Below are positions 1 through 29,355 of a stretch of DNA of 64,000 nt, piece by piece; the stretch's first letter is position 1; every line of letters begins with the position of its first letter. The stretch is from Crossaster papposus (Eukaryota; Echinodermata; Asteroidea; Velatida; Solasteridae). Both the position numbers and the translations under genes were made by a program. The notes under the pieces are model-generated. The model was given only the letters and a program-made list of their open reading frames with translations, was not told the DNA's origin and ran no database searches. The stretch covers positions 485,901-549,900 of the forward strand of contig JBAIAA010000694.1 in NCBI GenBank assembly GCA_037893245.1, in the 5' to 3' direction.

Positions 1-241
1 TCACTTCAATTCGGGCAGTGCACCCCCCTATGAGCCCGCGTTTCGCCGGTGACCGCCATTTGTGTGGCGCGCCCTCTATTGACATGCAATAAGTCGGGTT
101 TTCGGACAATAAATGCGTGGGCTCATAAACCCCGAAAATACAGTTTCCACTTGTTTCTTTGAGCATATGTAAACAGAGCTATTACTCCGGCTTCCCAACC
201 CATTAAGGCACATCGATTTGAATCAATTTCATCTATCTCGT
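1..241 (+). repeat. Unit head, conserved non-coding segment (described in unit 1)
   Basis: This is the most GC-rich part of the unit and precedes the tRNA-like element. It holds a GCAGTGCACCCCCCTA motif at 15-30, related to the poly-C motif near the end of each unit, and a single AscI octamer (GGCGCGCC) at 66-73. An AATAAA at 108-113 is probably chance. I see no gene. Subfamily markers lie here: GTCGGGTTTT (left units) against GTCGGTTTTT (right units), CCCCGAAAA against CCCTGAAAA, and GCATATG against GCTTATG. Confidence 0.8.
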
Positions 242-313
242 GGTAGAATGACCGAGTGTTTAAGAACCTCGACTGCGGTATCCATGGTCCGGGTTCGAGT
301 CCCGGTCCGGCCC
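242..313 (+). pseudogene. tRNA-like element, unit 1 (reference copy), tRNA-Ser-related, degenerate
   Basis: A perfect T-arm lies at 289-305: stem CCGGG/CCCGG around a TTCGAGT loop. It contains GGTTCGAGTCC, a full match to the Pol III B-box consensus, at 292-302. The D-arm stretch TGACCGAGTGTTTAAG from 249 resembles tRNA-Ser (usual form TGGCCGAGTGGTTAAGG) and would serve as a weak A box about 33 bases upstream of the B box. GACTGC...ATCCA at 271-284 also resembles the tRNA-Ser(GCU) anticodon arm. The acceptor strands GGTAGAA and TCCGGCC pair at 5 of 7 positions, counting one G-T. D-stem and anticodon stem do not pair and the usual long variable arm is absent, so charging is unlikely. It could instead be the head of a tRNA-derived SINE. 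A second reading takes GTGGTAGAAT as a tRNA-Gly-type A box. Confidence 0.6.
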
Positions 314-330
314 GAGGCCTTTCGTTTTTT
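309..330 (+). terminator. GC hairpin plus T6, putative Pol III terminator (unit 1)
   Basis: GGCC-CGA-GGCC at 309-319 can form a 4-bp hairpin. It is followed by TTTCG and six T at 325-330. A run of four or more T on the coding strand just after a tRNA-like body is the usual Pol III stop. The same arrangement lies 83-88 bases after the start of the tRNA-like element in every unit; unit 21 has T7. The transcript would be about 90 nt. Confidence 0.5.
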
Positions 331-510
331 CCAGTTCCAACGCACGCTGTTTCGCAATCTTTTCCTTAACATAATTAATTTATCGTCCTCACTCACCAAC
401 CGAGTTTAGCTGACCGGCTTAATTCGTCAGGTTGGGACTGTCCGCGGAGGTTCAGGATCGTGCCTGCAATTTTTTTTAATTTTTTTTTTAAGAACAATAA
501 TCACAATTCC
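331..510 (+). repeat. Spacer with T-rich tracts (described in unit 1)
   Basis: This is non-coding sequence between the putative terminator and the monomer array. It contains T8-AA-T10 at 470-489. In the right subfamily the AA is lost or reduced to one A, giving a near-pure T tract of about 18. The marker GATCGTGCCTGC (units 1-17) against GATCGAGCCTGC (units 19-39, with one further change in unit 34) lies just before this tract. I see no gene. Confidence 0.7.
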
Positions 511-1230
511 GCCAATTTTAATGGAAATACAAGGCTAACCCCTGTTCCCCCTTACAATTGTTCGTTTTTCTAAAAAAAAAATTAAAAAAAAAAAAAGGCA
601 AATAATTGTTGGCCAATGTTGATAGGAATGCAAGAATAACCCCTGGCCACTTTTAATTTCTCCTAAAACCAAAGTCAATTTATGGCGAATTGGAATTGAA
701 ATATAAGACTAACCCCGTACAATGTTTTAATTTGTTTCCAAGAACAATTAAATTTCCGCCAATTTTAATAGAAATGCAAGTATAACCCCTTTCCCCCCTT
801 ACAGTTGTTCGTTTAAAAAAAAACAGCAATTATCAATTAATTTTGGTCCTATTTTGATAAGAATACAAGGTTAACCCCTGGCAACTTTCAATTTCTCCTG
901 AAAGTTAATTTCTGGCGAATTGAAATTTAAATATAAGACTAACCCCATACAATGTTTTTATTTCTCCAAAATGTCATTTTTGTGGCCAATTTTGAAACAG
1001 AATGAAAGGTTATACCCTTGCAGGTTTTGTATTTTCCCAAAAAGTCAGTTTTGGGGATAATTTTAATTTAAACGCGAGGCTAACCTCTCACAATTATTTT
1101 ATTCTAGGCCAATTTTAGACGGACAAAAACAAACCGAGGCTAACTCCTCACAACTGGTCAATTTTCGCAAACAATTATTTGTTGGGGAAATTTTTAATTT
1201 AAATCTCGAGGCTAACTCCTTACAATTATT
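511..1230 (+). repeat. Internal array of about ten ~73-bp monomers (reference, unit 1)
   Basis: Ten diverged copies share a layout: a CCAATTTTAATAGAAA-like start, then an AAGGCTAACCCCTTACAA-like core, then a T-rich end with TTTCTCC. Start landmarks lie near 511, 612, 685, 758, 846, 915, 985, 1054, 1109 and 1196; most spacings are 69-73 bp. Monomers 1-3 and 4-6 match one to one as two copies of a ~240-bp trimer, while 8-10 form a separate subtype with CGAGGCTAACTCCT. An A-rich tract (unit 1: 30 bases with an internal TT) lies between monomers 1 and 2, and a shorter A-run lies at the matching place between 4 and 5. Each full unit carries this array starting about 510 bp after its first base; unit 11 lacks it and unit 13 lacks one monomer. 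Confidence 0.85.
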
Positions 1231-1334
1231 TATTTGCAAGTAAATAACACATGCATTGCCACCCTACTCCCGGGCACCACGAGGCAAGGCTGTCTGTCTG
1301 ATTTTCCGTTGTTTCCTATGTGCGCGTATGTTGT
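1231..1334 (+). repeat. Spacer before the poly-C tract (described in unit 1)
   Basis: This segment joins the last monomer to the poly-C tract. It is conserved in all full units. The marker ACTCCCGGGC (units 1, 2, 4, 5, 6, 8) against ACTCCTGGGC (the rest) lies here. Its right part, from CTGATTTTCCG on, is where unit 11 resumes after its large deletion. Confidence 0.6.
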
Positions 1335-1370
1335 GCAGTGCACCCCCCCCCCCCCCCCCCCACCCCCCTA
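1335..1370 (+). repeat. Poly-C microsatellite inside a duplicated GCAGTGCAC motif (unit 1)
   Basis: GCAGTGCAC is followed by a C run (19 in unit 1), one A, six C and TA. The first C run varies from 7 to 62 between units. The same flanks without the expansion, GCAGTGCACCCCCCTA, occur in the head of the next unit at 1693-1708, so the tract probably grew from a C6 run in a duplicated motif. The complementary strand is G-rich and could form quadruplexes; the C strand could form an i-motif. Confidence 0.85.
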
Positions 1371-1678
1371 CGGGCGCACTAGCCTCATTCAAGCCCTATT
1401 GAAACAAGTGTAAAAACCCAGTCTCGAAATGTTATACTTCCCCAGCCTGCACGCAGGCATTTTACAAGGGGCATCCCTCCACGTTCTCGGGCAATTAGGA
1501 CCCATTTTTCAACCGTAATTTTATCAAGTCTTCCCTCAGATTGAAGTCCCAAAACCAGAGGGGTTGATCCTGGGCTATCATTTATACAATCCCAGCATTG
1601 TTTTTTTACCAAACGGATTTCTTTTTCAAATAGAATTGTGGGGGCACATTTCATGCTAATGAGCTAGCGTAGAAATTC
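1371..1678 (+). repeat. Unit 3' segment, no supported gene (described in unit 1)
   Basis: This segment follows the poly-C tract. An 89-codon minus-strand frame is open here in most units, but it is frameshifted in units 34, 35 and 37, and nearly all differences between copies change the amino acid. I treat it as chance. Markers are CTATCATTT against CTATTATTT and the loss of one C in TTTACCAAACG. Confidence 0.6.
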
Positions 1679-16884: not shown

Positions 16885-17258
16885 TCACTTCAATTCGGGC
16901 AGTGCACCCCCCTATGAGCCCGCGTTTCGCCGGTGACCGCCATTTGTGTGGCGCGCCCTCTATTGACATGCAATAAGTCGGGTTTTCGGACAATAAATGC
17001 GTGGGCTCATAAACCCTGAAAATACAGTTTCCACTTGTTTCTTTGAGCATATGTAAACAGAGCTATTACTCCGGCTTCCCAACCCATTAAGGCACATCGA
17101 TTTGAATCAATTTTATCTATCTCGTGGTAGAATGACCGAGTGTTTAAGAACCTCGACTGCGGTATCCATGGTCCGGGTTCGAGTCCCGGTCCGGCCCGAG
17201 GCCTTTCGTTTTTTCTGATTTTCCGTTGTTTCCTATGTGCGCGTATGTTGTGCAGTGC

Positions 17259-17291
<33 letters not shown>

Positions 17292-17608
17292 ACCCCCCTA
17301 CGGGCGCACTAGCCTCATTCAAGCCCTATTGAAACAAGTGTAAAAACCCAGTCTCGAAATGTTATACTTCCCCAGCCTGCACGCAGGCATTTTACAAGGG
17401 GCATCCCTCCACGTTCTCGGGCAATTAGGACCCATTTTTCAACCGTAATTTTATCAAGTCTTCCCTCAGATTGAAGTCCCAAAACCAGAGGGGTTGATCC
17501 TGGGCTATTATTTATACAATCCCAGCATTGTTTTTTTACCAAACGGATTTCTTTTTCAAATAGAATTGTGGGGGCACATTTCATGCTAATGAGCTAGCGT
17601 AGAAATTC
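16885..17608 (+). repeat. Repeat unit 11, truncated (724 bp)
   Basis: Head and tRNA-like element are intact. At 17209-17216 the T-run passes straight into CTGATTTTCCG, which normally lies about 970 bp further on. The T-rich spacer, the whole internal monomer array and most of the next spacer are missing. The poly-C tract (17260-17291, 32) and the 3' segment follow normally. Confidence 0.97.
17126..17197 (+). pseudogene. tRNA-like element, truncated unit 11
   Basis: Consensus copy. The large deletion of this unit starts immediately after its T6 (17209-17214), so the module and its putative stop are complete. Confidence 0.6.
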
Positions 17609-22594: not shown

Positions 22595-23936
22595 TCACTT
22601 CAATTCGGGCAGTGCACCCCCCTATGAGCCCGCGTTTCGCCGGTGACCGCCATTTGTGTGGCGCGCCCTCTATTGACATGCAATAAGTCGGGTTTTCGGA
22701 CAATAAATGCGTGGGCTCATAAACCCTGAAAATACAGTTTCCACTTGTTTCTTTGAGCATATGTAAACAGAGCTATTACTCCGGCTTCCCAACCCATTAA
22801 GGCACATCGATTTGAATCAATTTTATCTATCTCGTGGTAGAATGACCGAGTGTTTAAGAACCTCGACTGCGGTATCCATGGTCCGGGTTCGAGTCCCGGT
22901 CCGGCCCGAGGCCTTTCGTTTTTTCCAGTTCCAACGCACGCTGTTTCGCAATCTTTTCCTTAACATAATTAATTTATCGTCCTCACTCACCAACCGAGTT
23001 TAGCTGACCGGCTTAATTCGTCAGGTTGGGACTGTCCGCGGAGGTTCAGGATCGTGCCTGCAATTTTTTTTAATTTTTTTTTTAAGAACAATAATCACAA
23101 TTCCGCCAATTTTAATGGAAATACAAGTCTAACCCCTGTTCCCCCTTACAATTGTTCGTTTTTCTAAAAAAAAAAAAAAAAAAAAAAAAAAGGCAAATAA
23201 TTGTTGGCCAATGTTGATAGGAATGCAAGAATAACCCCTGGCCACTTTTAATTTCTCCTAAAACCAAAGTCAATTTATGGCGAATTGGAATTGAAATATA
23301 AGACTAACCCCGTACAATGTTTTAATTTGTTTCCAAGAACAATTAAATTTCCGCCAATTTTAATAGAAATGCAAGTATAACCCCTTTCCCCCCTTACAGT
23401 TGTTCGTTTAAAAAAAACCAGCAATTATCAATTAATTTTGGTCCTATTTTGATAAGAATACAAGGTTAACCCCTGGCAACTTTCAATTTCTCCTGAAAGT
23501 TAATTTCTGGCGAATTGAAATTTAAATATAAGACTAACCCCATACAATGTTTTTATTTCTCCAAAATGTCATTTTTGTGGCCAATTTTGAAACAGAATGA
23601 AAGGTTATACCCTTGCAGGTTTTGTATTTTCCCAAAAAGTCAGTTTTGGGGATAATTTTAATTTAAACGCGAGGCTAACCTCTCACAATTATTTTATTCT
23701 AGGCCAATTTTAGACGGACAAAAACAAACCGAGGCTAACTCCTCACAACTGGTCAATTTTCGCAAACAATTATTTGTTGGGGAAATTTTTAATTTAAATC
23801 TCGAGGCTAACTCCTTACAATTATTTATTTGCAAGTAAATAACACATGCATTGCCACCCTACTCCTGGGCACCACGAGGCAAGGCTGTCTGTCTGATTTT
23901 CCGTTGTTTCCTATGTGCGCGTATGTTGTGCAGTGC

Positions 23937-23971
<35 letters not shown>

Positions 23972-24288
23972 ACCCCCCTACGGGCGCACTAGCCTCATTC
24001 AAGCCCTATTGAAACAAGTGTAAAAACCCAGTCTCGAAATGTTATACTTCCCCAGCCTGCACGCAGGCATTTTACAAGGGGCATCCCTCCACGTTCTCGG
24101 GCAATTAGGACCCATTTTTCAACCGTAATTTTATCAAGTCTTCCCTCAGATTGAAGTCCCAAAACCAGAGGGGTTGATCCTGGGCTATTATTTATACAAT
24201 CCCAGCATTGTTTTTTTACCAAACGGATTTCTTTTTCAAATAGAATTGTGGGGGCACATTTCATGCTAATGAGCTAGCGTAGAAATTC
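22595..24288 (+). repeat. Repeat unit 15 (1694 bp)
   Basis: Shares ACAAGTCTAACC with units 14 and 16. C run 23938-23971 (34). Confidence 0.97.
22836..22907 (+). pseudogene. tRNA-like element, unit 15
   Basis: Consensus copy with intact B box. Confidence 0.6.
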
Positions 24289-25628
24289 TCACTTCAATTC
24301 GGGCAGTGCACCCCCCTATGAGCCCGCGTTTCGCCGGTGACCGCCATTTGTGTGGCGCGCCCTCTATTGACATGCAATAAGTCGGGTTTTCGGACAATAA
24401 ATGCGTGGGCTCATAAACCCTGAAAATACAGTTTCCACTTGTTTCTTTGAGCATATGTAAACAGAGCTATTACTCCGGCTTCCCAACCCATTAAGGCACA
24501 TCGATTTGAATCAATTTTATCTATCTCGTGGTAGAATGACCGAGTGTTTAAGAACCTCGACTGCGGTATCCATGGTCCGGGTTCGAGTCCCGGTCCGGCC
24601 CGAGGCCTTTCGTTTTTTCCAGTTCCAACGCACGCTGTTTCGCAATCTTTTCCTTAACATAATTAATTTATCGTCCTCACTCACCAACCGAGTTTAGCTG
24701 ACCGGCTTAATTCGTCAGGTTGGGACTGTCCGCGGAGGTTCAGGATCGTGCCTGCAATTTTTTTTAATTTTTTTTTAAGAACAATAATCACAATTCCGCC
24801 AATTTTAATGGAAATACAAGTCTAACCCCTGTTCCCCCTTACAATTGGTCGTTTTTCTAAAAAAAAAAAAAAAAAAAAAAAAAGGCAAATAATTGTTGGC
24901 CAATGTTGATAGGAATGCAAGAATAACCCCTGGCCACTTTTAATTTCTCCTAAAACCAAAGTCAATTTATGGCGAATTGGAATTGAAATATAAGACTAAC
25001 CCCGTACAATGTTTTAATTTGTTTCCAAGAACAATTAAATTTCCGCCAATTTTAATAGAAATGCAAGTATAACCCCTTTCCCCCCTTACAGTTGTTCGTT
25101 TAAAAAAAACCAGCAATTATCAATTAATTTTGGTCCTATTTTGATAAGAATACAAGGTTAACCCCTGGCAACTTTCAATTTCTCCTGAAAGTTAATTTCT
25201 GGCGAATTGAAATTTAAATATAAGACTAACCCCATACAATGTTTTTATTTCTCCAAAATGTCATTTTTGTGGCCAATTTTGAAACAGAATGAAAGGTTAT
25301 ACCCTTGCAGGTTTTGTATTTTCCCAAAAAGTCAGTTTTGGGGATAATTTTAATTTAAACGCGAGGCTAACCTCTCACAATTATTTTATTCTAGGCCAAT
25401 TTTAGACGGACAAAAACAAACCGAGGCTAACTCCTCACAACTGGTCAATTTTCGCAAACAATTATTTGTTGGGGAAATTTTTAATTTAAATCTCGAGGCT
25501 AACTCCTTACAATTATTTATTTGCAAGTAAATAACACATGCATTGCCACCCTACTCCTGGGCACCACGAGGCAAGGCTGTCTGTCTGATTTTCCGTTGTT
25601 TCCTATGTGCGCGTATGTTGTGCAGTGC

Positions 25629-25662
<34 letters not shown>

Positions 25663-25979
25663 ACCCCCCTACGGGCGCACTAGCCTCATTCAAGCCCTAT
25701 TGAAACAAGTGTAAAAACCCAGTCTCGAAATGTTATACTTCCCCAGCCTGCACGCAGGCATTTTACAAGGGGCATCCCTCCACGTTCTCGGGCAATTAGG
25801 ACCCATTTTTCAACCGTAATTTTATCAAGTCTTCCCTCAGATTGAAGTCCCAAAACCAGAGGGGTTGATCCTGGGCTATTATTTATACAATCCCAGCATT
25901 GTTTTTTTACCAAACGGATTTCTTTTTCAAATAGAATTGTGGGGGCACATTTCATGCTAATGAGCTAGCGTAGAAATTC
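24289..25979 (+). repeat. Repeat unit 16 (1691 bp)
   Basis: Last unit with ACAAGTCTAACC. Private change ACAATTGGTCG near 24841. C run 25630-25662 (33). Confidence 0.97.
24530..24601 (+). pseudogene. tRNA-like element, unit 16
   Basis: Consensus copy with intact B box. Confidence 0.6.
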
Positions 25980-27658
25980 TCACTTCAATTCGGGCAGTGC
26001 ACCCCCCTATGAGCCCGCGTTTCGCCGGTGACCGCCATTTGTGTGGCGCGCCCTCTATTGACATGCAATAAGTCGGGTTTTCGGACAATAAATGCGTGGG
26101 CTCATAAACCCTGAAAATACAGTTTCCACTTGTTTCTTTGAGCATATGTAAACAGAGCTATTACTCCGGCTTCCCAACCCATTAAAGCACATCGATTTGA
26201 ATCAATTTTATCTATCTCGTGGTAGAATGACCGAGTGTTTAAGAACCTCGACTGCGGTATCCATGGTCCGGGTTCGAGTCCCGGTCCGGCCCGAGGCCTT
26301 TCGTTTTTTCCAGTTCCAACGCACGCTGTTTCGCAATCTTTTCCTTAACATAATTAATTTATCGTCCTCACTCACCAACCGAGTTTAGCTGACCGGCTTA
26401 ATTCGTCAGGTTGGGACTGTCCGCGGAGGTTCAGGATCGTGCCTGCAATTTTTTTTAATTTTTTTTTTAAGAACAATAATCACAATTCCGCCAATTTTAA
26501 TGGAAATACAAGGCTAACCCCTGTTCCCCCTTACAATTGTTCGTTTTTCTAAAAAAAAAAAAAAAAAAAAAAAAAGGCAAATAATTGTTGGCCAATGTTG
26601 ATAGGAATGCAAGAATAACCCCTGGCCACTTTTAATTTCTCCTAAAACCAAAGTCAATTTATGGCGAATTGGAATTGAAATATAAGACTAACCCCGTACA
26701 AAGTTTTAATTTGTTTCCAAGAACAATTAAATTTCCGCCAATTTTAATAGAAATGCAAGTATAACCCCTTTCCCCCCTTACAGTTGTTCGTTTAAAAAAA
26801 ACCAGCAATTATCAATTAATTTTGGTCCTATTTTGATAAGAATACAAGGTTAACCCCTGGCAACTTTCAATTTCTCCTGAAAGTTAATTTCTGGCGAATT
26901 GAAATTTAAATATAAGACTAACCCCATACAATGTTTTTATTTCTCCAAAATGTCATTTTTGTGGCCAATTTTGAAACAGAATGAAAGGTTATACCCTTGC
27001 AGGTTTTGTATTTTCCCAAAAAGTCAGTTTTGGGGATAATTTTAATTTAAACGCGAGGCTAACCTCTCACAATTATTTTATTCTAGGCCAATTTTAGACG
27101 GACAAAAACAAACCGAGGCTAACTCCTCACAACTGGTCAATTTTCGCAAACAATTATTTGTTGGGGAAATTTTTAATTTAAATCTCGAGGCTAACTCCTT
27201 ACAATTATTTATTTGCAAGTAAATAACACATGCATTGCCACCCTACTCCTGGGCACCACGAGGCAAGGCTGTCTGTCTGATTTTCCGTTGTTTCCTATGT
27301 GCGCGTATGTTGTGCAGTGCACCCCCCCCCCCCCCCCCCCCACCCCCCTACGGGCGCACTAGCCTCATTCAAGCCCTATTGAAACAAGTGTAAAAACCCA
27401 GTCTCGAAATGTTATACTTCCCCAGCCTGCACGCAGGCATTTTACAAGGGGCATCCCTCCACGTTCTCGGGCAATTAGGACCCATTTTTCAACCGTAATT
27501 TTATCAAGTCTTCCCTCAGATTGAAGTCCCAAAACCAGAGGGGTTGATCCTGGGCTATCATTTATACAATCCCAGCATTGTTTTTTTACCAAACGGATTT
27601 CTTTTTCAAATAGAATTGTGGGGGCACATTTCATGCTAATGAGCTAGCGTAGAAATTC
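25980..27658 (+). repeat. Repeat unit 17 (1679 bp)
   Basis: Shares ATTAAAGCAC with unit 18 only. Carries CTATCATTT, otherwise limited to units 1-7. C run 27322-27341 (20), short for the array. Confidence 0.97.
26221..26292 (+). pseudogene. tRNA-like element, unit 17
   Basis: Consensus copy with intact B box. Confidence 0.6.
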
Positions 27659-28999
27659 TCACTTCAATTCGGGCAGTGCACCCCCCTATGAGCCCGCGTT
27701 TCGCCGGTGACCGCCATTTGTGTGGCGCGCCCTCTATTGACATGCAATAAGTCGGGTTTTCGGACAATAAATGCGTGGGCTCATAAACCCTGAAAATACA
27801 GTTTCCACTTGTTTCTTTGAGCATATGTAAACAGAGCTATTACTCCGGCTTCCCAACCCATTAAAGCACATCGATTTGAATCAATTTTATCTATCTCGTG
27901 GTAGAATGACCGAGTGTTTAAGAACCTCGACTGCGGTATCCATGGTCCGGGTTCGAGTCCCGGTCCGGCCCGAGGCCTTTCGTTTTTTCCAGTTCCAACG
28001 CACGCTGTTTCGCAATCTTTTCCTTAACATAATTAATTTATCGTCCTCACTCACCAACCGAGTTTAGCTGACCGGCTTAATTCGTCAGGTTGGGACTGTC
28101 CGCGGAGGTTCAGGATCGTGCATGCAATTTTTTTAAATTTTTTTTTTAAGAACAATAATCACAATTCCGCCAATTTTAATGGAAATACAAGGCTAACCCC
28201 TGTTCCCCCTTACAATTGTTCGTTTTTCTAAAAAAAAAAAAAAAAAAAAAAAAAGGCAAATAATTGTTGGCCAATGTTGATAGGAATGCAAGAATAACCC
28301 CTGGCCACTTTTAATTTCTCCTAAAACCAAAGTCAATTTATGGCGAATTGGAATTGAAATATAAGACTAACCCCGTACAATGTTTTAATTTGTTTCCAAG
28401 AACAATTAAATTTCCGCCAATTTTAATAGAAATGCAAGTATAACCCTTTTCCCCCCTTACAGTTGTTCGTTTAAAAAAACCCAGCAATTATCAATTAATT
28501 TTGGTCCTATTTTGATAAGAATACAAGGTTAACCTCTGGCAACTTTCAATTTCTCCTGAAAGTTAATTTCTGGCGAATTGAAATTTAAATATAAGACTAA
28601 CCCCATACAATGTTTTTATTTCTCCAAAATGTCATTTTTGTGGCCAATTTTGAAACAGAATGAAAGGTTATACCCTTGCAGGTTTTGTATTTTCCCAAAA
28701 AGTCAGTTTTGGGGATAATTTTAATTTAAACGCGAGGCTAACCTCTCACAATTATTTTATTCTAGGCCAATTTTAGACGGACAAAAACAAACCGAGGCTA
28801 ACTCCTCACAACTGGTCAATTTTCGCAAACAATTATTTGTTGGGGAAATTTTTAATTTAAATCTCGAGGCTAACTCCTTACAATTATTTATTTGCAAGTA
28901 AATAACACATGCATTGCCACCCTACTCCTGGGCACCACGAGGCAAGGCTGTCTGTCTGATTTTCCGTTGTTTCCTATGTGCGCGTATGTTGTGCAGTGC

Positions 29000-29037
<38 letters not shown>

Positions 29038-29355
29038 ACCCCCCCTACGGGCGCACTAGCCTCATTCAAGCCCTATTGAAACAAGTGTAAAAACCCAGTC
29101 TCGAAATGTTATACTTCCCCAGCCTGCACGCAGGCATTTTACAAGGGGCATCCCTCCACGTTCTCGGGCAATTAGGACCCATTTTTCAACCGTAATTTTA
29201 TCAAGTCTTCCCTCAGATTGAAGTCCCAAAACCAGAGGGGTTGATCCTGGGCTATTATTTATACAATCCCAGCATTGTTTTTTTACCAAACGGATTTCTT
29301 TTTCAAATAGAATTGTGGGGGCACATTTCATGCTAATGAGCTAGCGTAGAAATTC
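27659..29355 (+). repeat. Repeat unit 18 (1697 bp), last of the left subfamily
   Basis: Shares ATTAAAGCAC with unit 17. Private changes are GTGCATGC, TAACCCTTTT and AACCTCTGGC. C run 29001-29037 (37); the C run after the A is 7 rather than 6. Confidence 0.97.
27900..27971 (+). pseudogene. tRNA-like element, unit 18
   Basis: Consensus copy with intact B box. Confidence 0.6.

Follow-up and report, generated by a model that had tools for sequence, protein, structure and literature searches.

A tRNA-related module in every unit of a 1.7-kb tandem satellite of Crossaster papposus

The window (the whole stretch of 64 000 nucleotides that was analysed; contig JBAIAA010000694.1, 485901-549900) is a single head-to-tail tandem array from 1 to 64000, made of 39 satellite units that each carry one tRNA-related module (Table 1). 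The module is probably the relic of a captured tRNA, copied passively in the satellite and holding a latent Pol III promoter anatomy. A piece of a tRNA gene, or the tRNA-derived head of a SINE, perhaps of serine type, would have been captured in the ancestor of the 1.7-kb unit, and unequal exchange and the duplication of several units at once would then have multiplied it along with the rest of the unit. Outwardly it still has the layout of a type 2 Pol III promoter (a weak A box, a good B box and T6), and homogenisation of the array, rather than selection, would maintain it. We favour passive copying because the diversity of the module is ordinary, a B-box mutant has been amplified, several units are copied at a time, the predicted fold is ordinary and the cloverleaf has decayed.

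Table 1. Coordinates of the first satellite unit and of the parts of its module (positions in the window)
Feature	Position	Strand	Remarks
First satellite unit of 39	1..1678	+	most units 1.67-1.73 kb
tRNA-related module, first of 39 copies	242..330	+	
A-box-like stretch TGACCGAGTGTT	249..260	+	identical in 39/39 copies
T-arm	289..305	+	stem pairs 5/5
B box GGTTCGAGTCC	292..302	+	exact in 36/39, one mismatch in 3/39
Short GC hairpin GGCC-CGA-GGCC	309..319	+	read from the sequence
T6, terminator-like	325..330	+	earliest run of at least four Ts downstream of the A box

The array and its growth

The contig belongs to an assembly of 1.02 Gb in 1841 contigs, and its end coincides with the end of the window. 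Array sequence is present in all seven stretches of the contig read with starts between 315,901 and 475,901, and is still detected 234 kb from the contig end; it was not found in any of the six stretches read at or left of 296,900, two of which gave matches to the poly-C tract only. An unbroken array would run for 234-253 kb to the contig end, and 125 kb of array sequence (the window included) were read in total. One stretch outside the array (L007:1-1500) resembles, by eye, a decayed pol of Ty3/Gypsy type.

Two independent searches located the modules, one for the A-box word and the other for the B box, in which at most two mismatches were allowed. Each search gave 39 matches, which bears out an earlier count of one module in every unit. 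Unit starts were placed 248 bases upstream of each A-box match; 37 of the units in the window are full, one is 724 bp long (16885-17608) and one is truncated at the window end. The regular 1.7-kb spacing reported in the preliminary description holds for 37 of the 38 module spacings (1596-1725 bp) and breaks at one of 724 bp. In the 724-bp unit the middle is apparently missing, by eye from just past T6 to about unit position 1290.

Much of the variation in unit length is probably owed to a C-rich tract (1335-1375 and its equivalents), the length of which is very variable (14-69 nt among 36 tracts matched by pattern). The AT-rich middle of the unit (484-1231) holds diverged sub-repeats around a TAACCCC/TAACTCC motif. 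Two inverted 30-nt arms, T-rich and A-rich (461-490 and 571-600; TGCC...GGCA), are separated by 80 nt and might come from the insertion of a foldback or MITE-like element. Three ORFs of at least 60 codons overlap 1-1700, the longest complete one having 89.

Several units have recently been copied at a time. Four consecutive units of the window (22595-29355) match four consecutive units of another array stretch (L002:1321-8081; starts at 1321, 3005, 4697 and 6393) with 1, 2, 2 and 2 differences. The pair of window units just ahead of them (19302 and 20898) matches two consecutive units of a third stretch (L003:2171-5463) with 3 and 8 differences. These recurring runs of four and two units are recent multi-unit copying; L002 and L003 lie 10 kb apart on the contig, so the six matching units do not form one contiguous source block. 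The mismatched B boxes all carry a G to C change at the equivalent of 293 (modules at 1918, 6977 and 8643), and the three units that contain them show no differences over 1590 sites outside homopolymers, which means that one mutation has been amplified. High retention is to be expected of any motif in this array, since several units are copied at a time.

Anatomy and ancestry of the module

The module is laid out like a type 2 Pol III promoter, with A and B boxes at a workable spacing followed by a T-run, the A box being imperfect. The start-to-start distance between the two boxes is 43 in all 39 modules of the window, T6 is present in all of them and an earlier T4 between the A box and T6 is found in none. 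The perfect T-arm containing the B box, and the T6 shortly after a short GC hairpin, were both recovered as first described (Table 1). The consensus of the A box is TRGYNNARYGG, and TGACCGAGTGTT differs from it at two fixed places; an alternative candidate for the A box is GTGGTAGAAT at about 233-245, which we take, by eye, to resemble the D-arm of a glycine tRNA. The ratio of observed to expected CpG is 1.27 in the module (240-330) and 0.84 in the whole unit, so that there is no depletion.

The cloverleaf has decayed except for the T-arm and part of the acceptor. The acceptor pairs at five of seven positions at best and the D-stem at two of three at best; a normal anticodon stem is absent, and a shifted stem of five pairs with a 9-nt loop is found at 271-275/285-289, with base 289 common to the T-stem. 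ARAGORN found no tRNA in the window, and the Rfam tRNA family, whose cut-off is 29 bits, scored 15.9 when 111 bases were searched alone (E 0.43 with all families included). Together these results rule out an intact tRNA gene, in agreement with the earlier statement that the module does not fold as a canonical tRNA. Other Rfam RNAs were ruled out as well: no family has a gathering-level match in the window, and the matches that were seen are weak.

It is likely, judging by the sequence, that the module is of tRNA ancestry, because none of 3000 dinucleotide shuffles of one unit placed a B box within a perfect T-arm (13 of the 3000 had a B box at all). Pure chance would be compatible with the lack of gathering-level Rfam and ARAGORN matches, with the E of 0.43 in 111 bases and with an Rfam search of a 3.4-kb stretch to E 10, in which no tRNA match is among those listed. 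It would also be compatible with the finding that 10 of the 3000 shuffles, nearly all of those with any B box, have an A-box-like match (at most three mismatches) upstream of it. Loose A-box matches near a B box are thus not rare in shuffles, and the A box is weak evidence; but the T-arm result, and the scores against ten human tRNA genes, make a chance resemblance scarcely credible. The highest of these scores were obtained with two serine genes (62.1 and 61.6) and a glutamate gene (58.0), against 55.1 for the best of 300 shuffled queries. The serine-type label is nevertheless weak.

A prokaryotic, viral-contig or phage source was rejected: scans for an exact pattern found none in viral_contigs (21 bases) or in genome_contigs (19 bases), and blastn of one unit against phages returned four records with short matches (28-37 bases, E 0.5-6). 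Blastn of the module against stretches outside the array (L007-L009 and L011-L013) gave four 10-base matches only (E 3.5). When exact words of at least 8 nt common to 195-245 and 314-1678 were searched, a single one, 8 nt long, was found; an old, decayed target-site duplication would escape this search. A second tRNA-like piece, spotted by eye at 395-470, was dropped, as its fold is no better than that of shuffles (z -0.22).

Module diversity and Pol III potential

Diversity was compared over alignment windows with at least 75 usable columns, in which homopolymer runs of at least 7 were masked and the module took up 91 columns; the comparison covered complete units of 1550-1800 bp. Among the 37 full units of the window, the module has a pi of 0.0048, at the 49th percentile of 1344 windows, and 2 of its 91 sites are variable as compared with 66 of 1499 elsewhere (Fisher p 0.43); an unmasked count with 89-column windows places it at the 43rd percentile. 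When 26 full units from stretches L001-L006 are added to these 37, making 63, it falls at the 33rd percentile of 1345 windows, with 3 of 91 sites variable as compared with 98 of 1500 elsewhere (p 0.27). Conservation of the module significantly above that of the unit remainder was therefore rejected, both counts leaning nominally, and non-significantly, to fewer changes in the module. The variable-site count of the flank is raised by 11 sites (unit positions 11-29) that look like the product of a misplaced boundary or an alignment artefact: they vary in two units, both located directly after a short unit (window 20898 and L003 3768), and a single site among them varies in L001 1494 as well. The units of the window differ from each other at 9.6 sites on average (over at most 1591 sites) and neighbours at 5.1, and the conservation tests have little power because the array is so uniform and is young.

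The window and L001-L006 hold 74 complete modules. Of these, 64 are identical to the reference and 71 retain the B box; the changes in the others are G to A at 246 (six modules), G to C at 293 (three) and C to A at module position 79 (one). Neither T6 nor the A-box stretch has been lost in any of the 39 copies in the window. The T-arm is the best-kept part of the ancestral tRNA, a pattern that promoter selection before or after the capture would leave, and we count it against passive retention.

The preliminary description proposed that the array could make a uniform RNA of ∼90 nt or serve as a TFIIIC insulator, and held that a module as diverse as its flanks across many arrays would speak against such roles. 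In this single array, the diversity of the module is close to that of the remaining unit (49th and 33rd percentiles), which points toward refutation, and a functional role of either kind is not supported by these comparisons.

One such role would be that of an OAX-like Pol III satellite, each unit of which would yield a short non-tRNA RNA from its internal A/B-box promoter, ending at T6. The constant spacing of 43 agrees with this, lying within the 30-60 bp called optimal for the distance between A and B boxes in the available text of PMC11346459, as does the T6 in all copies with no T4 before it. There are also precedents: the newt PolIII/TAN repeat can be transcribed in vitro, a tRNA-derived segment is part of Xenopus OAX (both from the available text of PMC10702118), and PMC2220036 cites a satellite of schistosomes whose Pol III promoter is functional. 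However, the A box departs twice from its consensus, the excess of conservation is not significant and a mutant B box has been amplified. The predicted RNA structure is no better than that of shuffles either (z -0.45 for 240-330, with 63 of 200 shuffles folding as well, and z -0.35 for 242-314). Folds so ordinary give no indication of a structured RNA, and a structured small RNA was rejected. We regard transcription of the OAX kind as rather unlikely.

Alternatively, the B boxes might bind TFIIIC without Pol III and so make up a regular insulator or clustering array, in the manner of the ETC sites without TFIIIB and Pol III that are described in the available text of PMC11346459. In favour of this, 36 of the 39 units carry the B box unchanged, ∼1.7 kb apart, but tandem copying alone suffices for regular spacing, the pattern is broken by the 724-bp unit and by the B-box-mutant lineage, and here too the excess of conservation is not significant; we consider this very improbable. 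The broader proposition, that a satellite of ∼234-253 kb with well over a hundred near-identical B-box modules (by extrapolation) makes one short non-tRNA Pol III RNA or acts as a TFIIIC-loaded domain, seems to us improbable.

Passive tRNA-derived sequence, kept as a fallback in the preliminary description, fits best, given the ordinary diversity and the amplified B-box mutant. Weak TFIIIC binding or low-level transcription of the module may still occur. If it is transcribed, this would be a further satellite carrying its own Pol III promoter, with a bearing on satellite transcription and on tRNA-derived modules as aids to array spread; if it is silent, it would show how the homogenisation of an array is enough to give a motif the look of conservation.

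Comparison with known tandem repeats

Tandem satellites with tRNA-related modules are a known kind. A literature search (by topic, not by sequence) found no report of the Crossaster repeat, and nothing was found on Meta-SINE in molluscs. Pol III transcribes Xenopus OAX, the unit of which is ∼0.74 kb long. The available text of PMC10702118 names Xenopus OAX ('satellite I'), newt PolIII/TAN, Rana/polIII and Hy/polIII as tandem families and doubts their origin from SINEs, whereas Xenopus satellite 1 and Hy/Pol III are tabulated in the available part of PMC9659126 as derived from tRNA-related regions of SINE-like elements.

Like the Crossaster array, Xenopus OAX consists of tandem units with a tRNA-derived segment, which is central in OAX; the likeness drawn here is one of unit make-up (PMC10702118, available text). 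The same text describes PolIII/TAN of the newt Cynops pyrrhogaster as tandem and tRNA-like, as here, with a unit of ∼360 nt instead of 1.7 kb. Rana/polIII and Hydromantes Hy/polIII are also tandem, with claimed similarity to tRNA and units of ∼250 and 200 nt, and box B, present in the Crossaster module, is absent from Hy/polIII according to the available text of PMC10702118. Squamates have satellites derived from SINEs (sSats), and in snakes the unit takes in the 3' portion of a SINE head, box B included; sSats units are 67-215 nt long among those given in that text, as compared with 1.7 kb here, where SINE parentage is a candidate.

The preliminary description had contrasted this array with known tandem tRNA gene arrays, which carry foldable tRNAs. 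The contrast holds for Entamoeba: its arrays likewise repeat tRNA sequence in tandem and are largely uniform in any one isolate, but they consist of tRNA genes, clear evidence for pseudogene copies being absent from the available text of PMC2652664, and the Crossaster module is no tRNA. It does not extend to the published tandem repeats whose tRNA-related segment is something other than a tRNA gene (PMC10702118, available text). As a tandem array with a tRNA-related segment in all 39 units of the window, and in 74 complete modules when L001-L006 are included, the Crossaster satellite is of the OAX kind in its layout.
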